Shown: in pieces, positions 24,911 through 64,000 of the stretch
How positions within the stretch are numbered: the stretch's first letter is position 1
Layout of the letters: every line of letters begins with the position of its first letter
Notes under the pieces: generated by a model
Seen by the model: the letters and a program-made list of their open reading frames with translations, nothing else
What the model was told of the DNA's origin: nothing
Database searches by the model: none
Origin: Candidatus Undinarchaeales archaeon
Lineage (GTDB): Archaea > SpSt-1190 > JASMDC01
NCBI GenBank assembly: GCA_030753015.1
Contig: JASMDC010000010.1
Coordinates: forward strand, 1 to 64,000
Length of the DNA: 64,000 nt
Reading direction: 5' to 3'
Position numbers and translations under genes: made by a program

Positions 24911-25489
24911 TTACCCGACCTCAAGCGTCCTGATAGCTTCCTCCACGGTGAGGTCGTGCTGCCAGACGGCAGTGAGCAGGCCTTGGAGGGGCATGTCCGT
25001 GGCTTTAATCCGAGACTTCGCTAGGCGCTTCAGAGGCGTCCGATCCTGTGTTTCTCGTTGTCCGGGTTCTGCGCTGTAGTACACTGCTGCCCTTCTCGCA
25101 CCCTGTCGGTGGAGTTTATCCTGTTCGACCAGCGATGTGAGGTGGTGGTGGATATGACTGCTGCCGAGGAGATCGGTGAGCTCGCCCGCAGTAAGCCCTG
25201 TCTCGCTTGCGTCGACCAGGGCGGTGATGGTGGCAAAGAGGTCGCGCCACCGGGAGAAGCGCGCGCCGTTGTGCTCCCAGAGGCCGTTCTCGTCGAACTC
25301 GGCGTCGTCGAGGTGAGCGAGGACAGTGCCGTTGCGGTTGTAGCTGCGAAGGTACCCTGTCCCTGCGAGCTTGCGGAAGACGGTGACCTTTGCGCAGTGG
25401 AAGCGTGCGGCGAGCTCGGTAGCTGTGAGGGCTGTGTTGGCGTGGAGGCAGTTGATGACATCTCCTTTGGTGATGCGCTCACGTCTCAT
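24911..25489 (-). CDS. Two-part winged-helix protein related to transposon ORFA
   Basis: This 192 aa protein begins MRRERITKGDVINCL and has two DNA-binding-like helical regions: residues about 8-45 (ALTATELAARFHCAKVTVFRKL) and about 95-130 (GLTAGELTDLLGSSHIHHHLTSLVEQDKL). The second part and the following HRQGARRAAVYYS match the first protein of the transposon at the window's right end, but no catalytic transposase follows here. A second, deleted copy lies at 61336-61656. It is an orphan transposon-type regulator or a domesticated one. A TATA box (25511-25519) lies 26 bases upstream and perfect inverted arms flank it, suggesting autoregulation. Confidence 0.72.
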   Translation of the reverse strand: MRRERITKGDVINCLHANTALTATELAARFHCAKVTVFRKLAGTGYLRSYNRNGTVLAHLDDAEFDENGLWEHNGARFSRWRDLFATITALVDASETGLTAGELTDLLGSSHIHHHLTSLVEQDKLHRQGARRAAVYYSAEPGQRETQDRTPLKRLAKSRIKATDMPLQGLLTAVWQHDLTVEEAIRTLEVG

Positions 25490-61345: not shown

Positions 61346-61656
61346 TCGTGAGCTCGACCGGCGGTCCTTTTCTCCGGACGCAGCGTGCTTGCCGCTTCCT
61401 CTGCGGTCATCTCGTGGCGCCAGACGGCGGCGAGCAGTTCTTGGACGCTAATGTCCGCGGTCTTCGACTGATGCGCCCCTTCGCGCTTTCGGGGCGTTCG
61501 CTCCTGTGACCTTCTCTTCTCCGGGTCCTTGCTGAGGTAAACGGCCGACCACCGTGAGCCCTTTCGATGAAGCCTTCCCTGTTCTATCAGCGTGGTGAGG
61601 GTGGTGCTGGCGCGGAGGCAGGAGAGGATGGGTCCCCTGGTTATGCGCTCGGGTCT
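61336..61656 (-). pseudogene. Degenerate winged-helix regulator copy (deleted, no ATG)
   Basis: This is a decayed copy of the 24911-25489 gene. The codon aligned with that gene's start is ATA (61657-61659), so no ATG is present; only a TTG at 61704 lies in frame. Internally 96 codons are missing: RASTTLT runs directly into TLIEQGRLHRKG, where the intact copy has a 288-base segment bounded by CCTCACA repeats. The upstream sequence (61661-61680) still matches the intact copy's operator. Its stop overlaps the end of the plus-strand 59555 gene by ten bases. Confidence 0.7.
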
Positions 61657-61660
61657 TATT

Positions 61661-61680
61661 ATGATATAGTAAGCAGTTAA
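61661..61680. promoter_or_regulatory. Conserved left operator arm before the relic
   Basis: ATGATATAGTAAGCAGTTAA matches 25491-25510 except for two bases, while the right arm present there is missing here, presumably replaced by the transposon. Confidence 0.55.
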
Positions 61681-61700
61681 AATAATAATACGCCATAGCG

Positions 61701-63482
61701 TCAAGAATCGGTTGGGGCCAGAGCCATCTGGCCTGCCAATAGCGGTCGATTGAGATGTGAAATAATTATGTGTGATTCAACATCCTTGAGCACCCTTCTA
61801 CAGACTTCCTTGAACGTCTCGAACTCACCCTCCCCCCTAGCCCTCGTGACGTCGTATCTGCACCGTGCATCCTTGAACTCTGCTGTCAGCCTGTCCACTT
61901 CGTCCTTCGGGATGGTACCGAGCTCCTCGGGCATGCGATCGATCGAGCCGAACATAGTCTTCACGTACTCGTCGGAGTGGAGGTTCTGGACGAGGCACAG
62001 GAGCACCCCGTATCTGTTCAACTCGTAACCGGTGTCCTTCCTTCCCGTCCGCTTCCTGATGCCGGTCTTGACCCGTCCGAACCTGGTATCGAGAAGGCTT
62101 ACAGCCCGCGGCACGGCAATGTTCTTCGTCTTCCCGTCCACGTTCACGGTGATGTTCGGCACCACGAGACCTTTCCAGTGCTTCTTGATGTGATAAAGAA
62201 CGACCTCTTCCTCGGGAGTGATGGTACGCTCCTTCCTGACTTTCTCGAGCCTGTCCCTGAGCGCCGCCAGCTCACGTTCCATCACCGTCGCCTCCTCGTC
62301 CGACACGAGGAGCTGGTCCCGGGGTATGTCGCCCTTGTCCTCGCTCATCCTGAGGACCCCTCTCAGCTCAGAGAAGAGCTCGTAGGCGTCCGCAAGCCGT
62401 CGTCCTAGTGTGTCAGCCGACCTGCTCTCCCTGCTGTTGAATGGGCGCTCGACGATCCTGCGCACCGTCTCGATGTCCCCCGTGTCGAGTCCTGCCCGCT
62501 CCGCCGTCCGTGCGATCATCGATGCGGCCCCCTGCGCCTGCCGGCATCTTCGGTAGAGGTCCGCCCAGGGAATGCTGTAGGGGAACCGGAGCCCGTGCGC
62601 GTCCTCACGGTAGTTGAGGATCCACGACACGAGGTGATAGGTCTCTGCCAGGACGACCGTCCCGTCGTCCTCCACAGGCGCACCCCCCTTGAGGGCGCAC
62701 ATGGTGGCCCTCAGGTCGACGTCCCGCTCCGCGGCCTCGGCGCCGATCTCCTTGCGCCGCCTGTCGAGGTCGGGTCTGATCCTGAGGTCGATCATGGCCT
62801 TTCTGAGCTTCATGTAGGTGTCCTCCATCACATCCTCGCCGACATCACGGAGGAAGTGATAGTTGCACTCCCGGGTCGGAAGATCCGGGAACACGCGTTC
62901 GCCCGCCTTGCGCAGTCCGAGCCCCATGTCCCTGACGAAGGCGAGCGGCGTGCCCGCCCGCTCCTTGATGTCCTCGAAGTACGGACCGATGTGCTTACTG
63001 CTCTCCGACGGTATCGGGCCGCAGGAGAGCGCCCAGCCCGTGAGGAGGTCCATCAGCAGTAGGATGCGGTCACTGCCACCGTCGCCCGTCCCGTCCGCGC
63101 CAAGCACGTAGCCACCGTTCTTGTCCATGGCCTCCACCAGCCGGCCGAAGTGCCGGCGGTGGTACAGCTCGAACCTGGCGAGGAACTCGAGTGCGTGGTT
63201 GCTGACGGTGCCCGCCGACAACGGCACCCCATGCCGCCACCGCATCTCACCACAGGTGTCCTCCCGCGACCGATTCTCCAAATATCGCATCATACCGACG
63301 GCGCACACCACGTCCATCGTGAACCGCGCCTTGCCGCGCGTCAGGCGACGGAGTTCGCAGGAGGTGTACTCCAGCACATGCCCGCGCTCCAGCTTGTACT
63401 TCGGGTCGTAAAGATGGACGATCCGGGCGACGAAGCTCCCGTACCGGACCGTGTGCATCGTGCGCGTCGTGGTCTTGAGCAC
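61701..63482 (-). CDS. DDE-type (IS256/MULE-like) transposase, ORFB
   Basis: This catalytic protein is 593 aa from a GTG start at 63482. It has GADGTGDGG (about residue 128, first Asp), VRDMGLGL (about 183, second Asp), the C-x2-H signature CNYHFLRDVG (about 204) typical of IS256/MULE transposases, and a Glu in GYELNRYG (about 485). Its frame stays open for 49 codons above the GTG, to 63629, where it meets the upstream ORFA frame shifted by -1 at a slippery run. It is probably made as an ORFA-ORFB fusion. It ends close to the relic's promoter, so the element may have inserted there. Confidence 0.85.
   Translation of the reverse strand: MLKTTTRTMHTVRYGSFVARIVHLYDPKYKLERGHVLEYTSCELRRLTRGKARFTMDVVCAVGMMRYLENRSREDTCGEMRWRHGVPLSAGTVSNHALEFLARFELYHRRHFGRLVEAMDKNGGYVLGADGTGDGGSDRILLLMDLLTGWALSCGPIPSESSKHIGPYFEDIKERAGTPLAFVRDMGLGLRKAGERVFPDLPTRECNYHFLRDVGEDVMEDTYMKLRKAMIDLRIRPDLDRRRKEIGAEAAERDVDLRATMCALKGGAPVEDDGTVVLAETYHLVSWILNYREDAHGLRFPYSIPWADLYRRCRQAQGAASMIARTAERAGLDTGDIETVRRIVERPFNSRESRSADTLGRRLADAYELFSELRGVLRMSEDKGDIPRDQLLVSDEEATVMERELAALRDRLEKVRKERTITPEEEVVLYHIKKHWKGLVVPNITVNVDGKTKNIAVPRAVSLLDTRFGRVKTGIRKRTGRKDTGYELNRYGVLLCLVQNLHSDEYVKTMFGSIDRMPEELGTIPKDEVDRLTAEFKDARCRYDVTRARGEGEFETFKEVCRRVLKDVESHIIISHLNRPLLAGQMALAPTDS
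61716..61733. other. Short inverted repeat at the transposase 3' end
   Basis: GGCCAGA and TCTGGCC enclose GCCA, within the last codons of the transposase. It may be part of an element end or a terminator; the role is uncertain. Confidence 0.35.
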
Positions 63483-63607
63483 GCAAAGCTCCCAGAAGCG
63501 GTCGTCATCGACGAGCTCGGGCTCAGGGTAGAAGTCGATGACGGGAGGCTCGTCGCCCAGCAGCTGCGCCCGGTCGATCAGCTCGGATTCGGCAGCACGG
63601 ACCTCGG

Positions 63608-64000
63608 CTAGGACCCGGAGCGAAAGCCCTTTTTTTTGATATCGTACTCATGGATGATCCAGCGAACTCCACGCTCGTTCACATTCATTCCCTTGGAACG
63701 CACGAGGGGCATGAGCTCCTCCACCGAGGTCGCCCGGTGCTTGATAGCGAGCGCAAGCACATCGATGATCTTCCCCTTCGTCAGGCCCGGCGGACGGCCA
63801 ACCCGCGTCCTGAGTTCGGAGCCGCGTCTCTTCATCTGCACACGCCGTTTCCGGCTATTCATGCTGTAGTAGACGGCCGACTTACGGGCGCCCTCGCGAT
63901 AGAGCCGCCCTTTTCCCACACACGAGGACAGGTGGTGATGGATGTTGTCGTGGAGGCGCTGTTTGAGCTCCTTCGCTGTGACTCCTGCGTCGCTGTTCTC
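63608..64000 (-). CDS. Transposon ORFA, winged-helix DNA-binding protein (partial)
   Basis: 130 codons are visible; the start is beyond the window. It begins in GVTAKELKQRLHDNIHHHLSS and VGKGRLYREGARKSAVYYSM, closely matching the second part of the 24911-25489 protein, and continues with GRPPGLTKGKIIDVLALAIK and a second helix-turn-helix-like VNERGVRWIIHEYDIKKKG. It should bind the element's ends. The zero-frame stop (63608) lies 21 bases after an A AAA AAG heptamer at 63629-63635; a -1 slip there would continue into the transposase. Confidence 0.75.
   Translation of the reverse strand, partial: ENSDAGVTAKELKQRLHDNIHHHLSSCVGKGRLYREGARKSAVYYSMNSRKRRVQMKRRGSELRTRVGRPPGLTKGKIIDVLALAIKHRATSVEELMPLVRSKGMNVNERGVRWIIHEYDIKKKGFRSGS
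63629..63635 (-). promoter_or_regulatory. Slippery heptamer for -1 frameshift
   Basis: On the minus strand a run of eight A then GGG reads AAA AAA AAG GGC in ORFA, giving A AAA AAG in the correct phase. A -1 shift continues as GGG CTT TCG into the open ORFB frame with no stop codon until 61701. Confidence 0.65.

Follow-up and report, generated by a model that had tools for sequence, protein, structure and literature searches.

The window, i.e., the whole stretch of 64,000 nucleotides that was analysed, ends within an insertion sequence that carries two overlapping genes on the minus strand. The features of the locus are given below in window coordinates unless the contig is named.

61661-61684, no strand: left arm of the AT-rich palindromic repeat, older than the element, within which the element inserted; the right arm is at contig 64428-64456.
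61685-61692, no strand: 8-bp target-site duplication, ATAATACG; the second copy is at contig 64420-64427, outside the window.
61693-61714, no strand: left terminal inverted repeat, CCATAGCGTCAAGAATCGGTTG, 22 bp, a perfect match to the right repeat at contig 64398-64419, outside the window.
61701-63629, minus strand: ORFB, the -1 frame after the putative slip; 642 codons plus stop, predicted Mutator/IS256-superfamily DDE transposase.
62088-62090, minus strand: codon of residue 514, D in the window copy and the expected catalytic E in all relatives covering the column.
62856-62867, minus strand: residues 255-258, which form the C-x2-H motif (C/D(2)H) characteristic of Mutator-like transposases.
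62928-62930, minus strand: codon of the predicted second catalytic D, residue 234 (RDM), invariant in 29/29 alignment rows.
63093-63095, minus strand: codon of the predicted first catalytic D, residue 179 of the -1 product (ADGT), assigned from alignment and model.
63480-63482, minus strand: GTG, the first possible start of ORFB, with GGGAG 6 nt upstream.
63483-63629, minus strand: start-less stretch of the -1 frame, 49 codons reachable solely by a frame change.
63608-64000, minus strand: C-terminal part of ORFA; the whole gene (contig 63608-64276, ATG at 64276) encodes 222 amino acids with an HTH_11 domain.
63630-63637, minus strand: A8 tract, the candidate slip site; with the next G it forms the in-phase heptamer A_AAA_AAG (63635-63629).

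The complete insertion sequence occupies contig 61693-64419 (2727 bp), and the window edge cuts it at 64000. Perfect 22-bp terminal inverted repeats, with ATAATACG flanking both ends, identify it as an insertion sequence and place its limits at 61693 and 64419, not at 61701 and 64000 as the sequence-only reading had it. A 59-nt, 80% repeat was also considered for the element ends and was rejected: its outer part is the older palindrome, and it is the 22-bp repeat and the 8-bp duplication that mark the ends. The sequence-only reading placed the ORFA stop correctly at 63608; the gene itself is cut by the window edge.

The AT-rich palindrome around the element (ATGATATAGTAA...TTACTATATCAT; window 61661-61692 and contig 64420-64456) recurs in the same genome (loci L015, around 2345, and L012, 76-110): a near-empty paralogue on contig C62 carries the palindrome but lacks the element, and a truncated second copy of the element (end of C78, start of C44) sits in another such palindrome; these two observations suggest that the palindrome is a preferred insertion target. 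Immediately 5' of the ORFA start lies an inverted repeat, ATACTTTTAAGTAAGCATA / TATGCTTACTTTTATGTAT (contig C11 64275-64335; L011 6275-6335), which is a possible operator for ORFA. The same genome holds solo ORFA-like HTH genes that lack ORFB (window 24911-25489 and 61393-61599, both on the minus strand; L005, L006, L007 and L008), some of which have the same palindrome beside their start. These solo genes are perhaps cut-down elements or repressors.

The HTH domain of ORFA matches PF08279 at 30.3 bits. At the junction, its zero frame reads ATC AAA AAA AAG GGC, with GGG (63629-63627) directly after the A8 tract and the stop at 63608. The tract is the sole A/T run of at least 8 bases within the 64-kb window, the GC content of which is 63%. 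Reading of the minus strand confirmed that A_AAA_AAG lies in the zero-frame phase X_XXY_YYZ, as had been proposed, and that the -1 frame is open from 63629 to 61701; in fact, it opens already at 63647. ATG, GTG and TTG are absent between 63629 and 63482, which leaves the 49 codons that had been counted above the GTG. That GTG would be a possible start for an ORFB-only product.

An AlphaFold model of the 642-residue -1 product, for which 29 homologues were aligned, reached a mean pLDDT of 86.6 and shows an RNase H core (strands 175-254 and 493-504) with a helical insert (helices 256-488) between the second aspartate and the place of the catalytic glutamate. D179 and D234 are positioned as expected in the model, and residue 514 is on a helix at the place of the glutamate. 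The best Foldseek match was the ISCth4 transposase (E 8e-7), against which VIA-align gave Z 12.9 over 344 residues (rmsd 7.6). Matches to the HIV/PFV integrases were discounted because only the RNase H core is common, and matches to hemagglutinin were discounted as coiled-coil noise. When checked against the Mutator pattern, in which D, D and E are accompanied by C/D(2)H 11-19 amino acids after the second D, the protein has D179, D234 and C255-x2-H258, with D514 as the third residue.

Six relatives (L104, L029, L027, L028, L124 and L078) score 21.7-32.3 bits with Pfam Transposase_mut (PF00872, gathering score 21), among them L104 with 31.8 and L029 with 32.3 bits; the window ORFB is below the gathering score. 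Among the Pfam and NCBIfam models tested, none has a cut-off that the window protein exceeds. With the IS256 model (NF033543, cut-off 150) it scores 24 bits and its relatives at most 38, while with the ISKra4 model (NF033572, cut-off 205) it gave no match and the best score was 23.5 bits (L111). The best scores were 23.6 bits (L124) for ISH6 (NF041731, cut-off 240) and 25.6 bits (L029) for ISL3 (NF033550, cut-off 180). Because the modelled RNase H fold carries D, D and C-x2-H and matches ISCth4, and because relatives exceed the PF00872 gathering score, the family can be placed, on the strength of the model, in the Mutator/IS256 superfamily. The sequence-only call of an HTH domain joined to a DDE domain with CxxH agrees with the PF08279 match in ORFA and with the Mutator-type DDE domain and ISCth4-like fold predicted for ORFB.

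The window copy itself may be impaired or inactive, because D replaces the catalytic E at residue 514. The NN that adjoins it in relatives is replaced too (RAVSLLD, compared with RTNNxxE).

Relatives were gathered by scanning with an alignment of three proteins (tblastn) and by searching genomes of three phyla, and were present in 18/389 genomes of Thermoplasmatota, 16/392 of Halobacteriota and 4/392 of Planctomycetota; many of the loci are in metagenome assemblies. Unlike the three-protein alignment, a single-protein scan of genome contigs found no relative. A search of viral contigs also found no relative, and tblastn of the window protein against plasmids gave no match.

Among the elements with a readable junction, 32 have ORFB at -1 behind a run of A5-A9 at the homologous site, namely the window copy and 31 others, with L018, L031, L105 and L108 being fragments or degenerate copies. 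The run is A8 in 17 of these, A9 in seven, A7 in four, A6 in three and A5 in one, and 27 of the 32 have an in-phase A_AAA_AAN heptamer in the zero frame (the full heptamer is absent from L071, L088, L093, L108 and L128). The junction codons are, for example, GGA AAA AAA ACG in L104, TTT AAA AAA AAC in L068, GTA AAA AAA ACT in L073 (70% GC) and GTA AAA AAG GGG in the planctomycete L126. The hosts are Thermoplasmatota, Halobacteriota (Methanoperedens, Methanophagales), SZUA-158-like archaea and Planctomycetota, and protein identity falls to approximately 20-30%. Outside the junction, the coding sequence of these elements (56,224 bases) contains five runs of at least A8. The position, phase and direction of the site are thus all conserved among homologues, as expected of a programmed -1 site.

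The sequence-only reading had named two observations that would count against frameshifting: absence of the tract from homologues, and homologues with a single uninterrupted frame. Neither was made. Even distant homologues keep an A-run at this position, and a single uninterrupted frame is present in none of the intact ones; the one ORF with both domains in a single frame (L119) is a deletion derivative, compared with 91 A-only and 140 B-only ORFs. Because the slip site keeps its place across some thirty elements of archaea and bacteria that are only distantly related, it is very probably a functional switch for control, rather than a mutation.

The codons at the junction were compared with the usage of the elements themselves; the P values that follow count representatives as independent. 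Against each element's own usage of AAA and AAG, the junction lysine codons gave log10P = -19.8 for 21 representatives with less than 60% identity to one another, and log10P = -12.8 for the nine GC-rich representatives alone. In L073, for instance, the junction has AAA AAA, compared with two AAA to 13 AAG elsewhere. The X of X_XXY_YYZ, which is the third base of the codon preceding the lysines, is A in 15/15 elements listed, a few of which are related (log10P = -12.5). For the ORFB codons from the run to the first ATG, seven of the nine pairs compared show purifying selection (omega 0.11, 0.20, 0.25, 0.15, 0.22, 0.31 and 0.28); the other two pairs gave 0.59, with the deletion derivative L105, and 1.42, with only a short overlap (L033/L068).

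Relatives have moved recently in two genomes. G567 has three identical 2184-bp copies with their own 8-bp duplications (atctgacg, gtttaaac and atttaaag), and G217 has two identical 2122-bp copies with the duplications attatatc and gcaattca. All of these copies keep two frames, which indicates that the split form transposes.

A frameshift mutation in a decaying element, with A8 as a hot spot for replication slips, would leave the same arrangement in the window copy. The D in place of the catalytic E fits such decay, as does the loss of one A at the run in L115, an element cut by the end of its contig. However, the split is common to 31 other elements, including the identical multi-copy elements with fresh 8-bp duplications, and the codon-usage and selection tests contradict decay, which is accordingly considered very improbable. 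The reading of the locus as a pseudogene was rejected on the grounds of identical mobile split copies, lysine-codon bias and purifying selection.

The ORFA/ORFB boundary is also crossed in other ways. In a clade with a GC content of 68-70% (L079, L083, L087 and L089), ORFB lies at +1 behind C7-C9 (AAC CCC CCC CTG), and in L111, a sister of this clade, and its near relative L118 it lies at +1 behind A9 in DNA of 43% GC. A Thermoplasmatota clade (L047, L076, L078, L080 and L081) has no run; there, ORFA ends with AAATGA and the ATG within it opens ORFB, a stop/start overlap that, judged by its layout, is typical of translational coupling. The homologous lysines of this clade are a mixture of AAG and AAA, making it a natural negative control for the A-run. 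On the ORFB tree the four junction states need three changes; this tree was built quickly, with SH-aLRT support values, and the window element is one of its two long branches.

The bacterial plasmid relatives labelled 'ISNCY' or 'transposase' (L094, L095, L096, L097, L098, L099, L100 and L101) have no visible ORFA, and their frame changes at A- or G-runs downstream of the C-x2-H motif. For two of these relatives, the annotated CDS has a length (1495 and 1510 nt) that is not divisible by three.

The ATGA overlap of the sister clade raises an alternative for the -1 elements, in which ORFA and ORFB would be two separate proteins, ORFB being made from GTG 63482 or by reinitiation, with the fusion unneeded. 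The SD-like GGGAG upstream of the GTG in the window copy would serve such a start. However, the -1 frame is conserved across the 49 codons above the GTG (PPVIDFYPEP in the window, PPVIRFYPQ in L113 and PTINFYPEI in L124), and the A-run would have no reason to be conserved. Moreover, in L104, L028 and L031, ATG, GTG and TTG are absent for approximately 70-80 codons after the run, beyond the zinc ribbon, and internal initiation therefore cannot make a complete ORFB domain in these elements. Two separate proteins are consequently regarded as an improbable explanation.

The best explanation for these observations is that programmed -1 recoding at the A8 tract joins ORFA and ORFB, whichever machinery slips, and on the comparison of sequences this is very probably the case. 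Normal decoding would yield ORFA alone, a DNA-binding protein, and a minority of decoding events would shift to -1 on A8 to give the full ORFA-ORFB transposase, which unites an N-terminal DNA-binding part with the DDE part. Beyond the anatomy of the junction, its conservation, the selection on the -1 frame and the recent transposition of relatives, all of which are observed, we infer that the fusion is the active enzyme and that ORFA alone is a regulator.

The slip itself would be made either by the ribosome or by RNA polymerase. In the former case, the ribosome would slip by -1 on A_AAA_AAG (A_AAA_AAA or A_AAA_AAC in relatives), which would hold the transposase low and tie it to translation in cis. 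In the latter, the polymerase would add one A (or drop two) within A8, such that a fraction of the mRNAs carries the fused frame; as had been correctly anticipated, the protein would be the same. Conserved shift direction is a criterion for ribosomal frameshifting, and families that use slippage often mix directions (PMC3711429). The direction is constantly -1 in the main clades, and constant within each clade, and the heptamer is in phase. GC-rich members keep A5-A7 only, short for a polymerase, and the GC-rich bacterial members are trimmed to the heptamer (A_AAA_AAG with only A6 in L126; A7 in L125 and L037). However, the A8-A9 of 24 of the 32 elements, to which most AT-rich members belong, exceeds what the heptamer needs and suits RNA polymerase. 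Bacterial insertion sequences with A8-A9, such as those of Deinococcus and Nostoc, and one Sulfolobus set are considered to use slippage (PMC1088944), and the +1 sister clade keeps a homopolymer while its base varies, being A9 at intermediate GC (L111, L118) and C7-C9 in GC-rich DNA.

A downstream structure or an upstream SD sequence is a common, not obligatory, stimulator of ribosomal frameshifting, and neither was found at the junction, which counts in favour of RNA polymerase: a scan of 27 elements for stem-loops other than pseudoknots found none that is conserved (mean z -0.36; 2/27 below -1.5), and SD-like matches were scattered. The codon-phased X = A is expected under both mechanisms alike. 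From the phase, direction and length of the runs, the ribosome is somewhat more likely to be the machinery that slips, and slippage by RNA polymerase remains a serious if less probable alternative.

There are reasonable grounds for regarding these elements as a new insertion sequence family of the Mutator superfamily, with ISMich2 compared by description only, that extends across several archaeal phyla and Planctomycetota. The family would have a fixed ORFA/ORFB boundary and at least two changes in the mode of crossing it, which is by -1 at A-runs, by +1 at A9 (C7-C9 where the host is GC-rich) or by ATGA coupling. If so, archaeal programmed +1 recoding on a run of cytosines would be among its modes, and its members would serve as matched natural constructs for studying how the ribosomes or RNA polymerases of archaea slip.

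In archaea, frameshifting has experimental support for very few genes (Sulfolobus fucA1), others being predicted (PMC8211752, PMC5009743). A slip site that is conserved across archaeal phyla in recently moved elements provides ready test cassettes, and three junction types on one tree allow -1, +1 and reinitiation to be compared at one protein boundary. Such split genes are also prone to annotation as two hypothetical genes or as pseudogenes.

The ORFB fold, the order D, D, C-x2-H, the helical insert and the 8-bp target duplications are shared with IS256 (ISCth4, 6xg8/6xgx). IS256 transposases are encoded by a single ORF, whereas the family in the window adds an N-terminal DNA-binding ORFA, a split gene and, in most relatives, a zinc-ribbon segment. 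The ISMich2 group (p-MULT 4, ISKra4 family; Guerillot et al. 2014) is described as Mutator-type (PMC3942029). It shares with the window family the Mutator-superfamily DDE, the C/D(2)H motif, the two ORFs and a -1 frameshift, which in that group is conserved and has been predicted to be programmed. However, the window family is far from ISKra4 in sequence (NF033572, best 23.5 compared with 205; ISMich2 itself was compared by description only), and neither a separate HTH ORFA nor archaeal members are described for the ISMich2 group in the available text. The bacterial 'ISNCY family' plasmid relatives (Nostoc, Microvirga, Deinococcus and Rhodovastum) have a related zinc-ribbon/DDE core and a broken frame; they differ in that no ORFA is seen and the frame breaks at A- or G-runs beyond the C-x2-H motif.

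The joining of ORFs by frameshifting is classical in IS1, IS3, IS5 and IS630 (PMC5009743). IS3 and IS1 have a DNA-binding ORFA, a catalytic ORFB at -1, an A_AAA_AAG-type site and a fusion that acts as transposase (PMC5009743); their transposase is unrelated, and the window family has longer A-runs and no stem-loop or SD stimulator was found at its junction. A 2021 review of archaeal recoding covers fucA1, a halovirus and Mg-chelatase, and its sole mention of a transposase concerns pyrrolysine, not frameshifting (PMC8211752). For archaea, a -1 shift has been predicted in ISTli1 (IS982 family, Thermococcus litoralis; PMC7335449), and A9 insertion sequences of Sulfolobus solfataricus were listed in 2005 as slippage candidates (PMC1088944). 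As far as the available text of these two sources goes, both cases are archaeal, have two frames that need a -1 change or slippage and are predicted only; they belong to other or unnamed families, and cross-phylum conservation is not described for them. The sequence-only reading had taken archaeal frameshift transposases of this type as not known to be described, which must be qualified, as these two cases and the Mutator-type ISMich2 (PMC3942029) precede the present one. Because ISTli1, the Sulfolobus A9 insertion sequences and ISMich2 are already predicted or described, the split element is best understood as a variant of known insertion sequence frameshifting.
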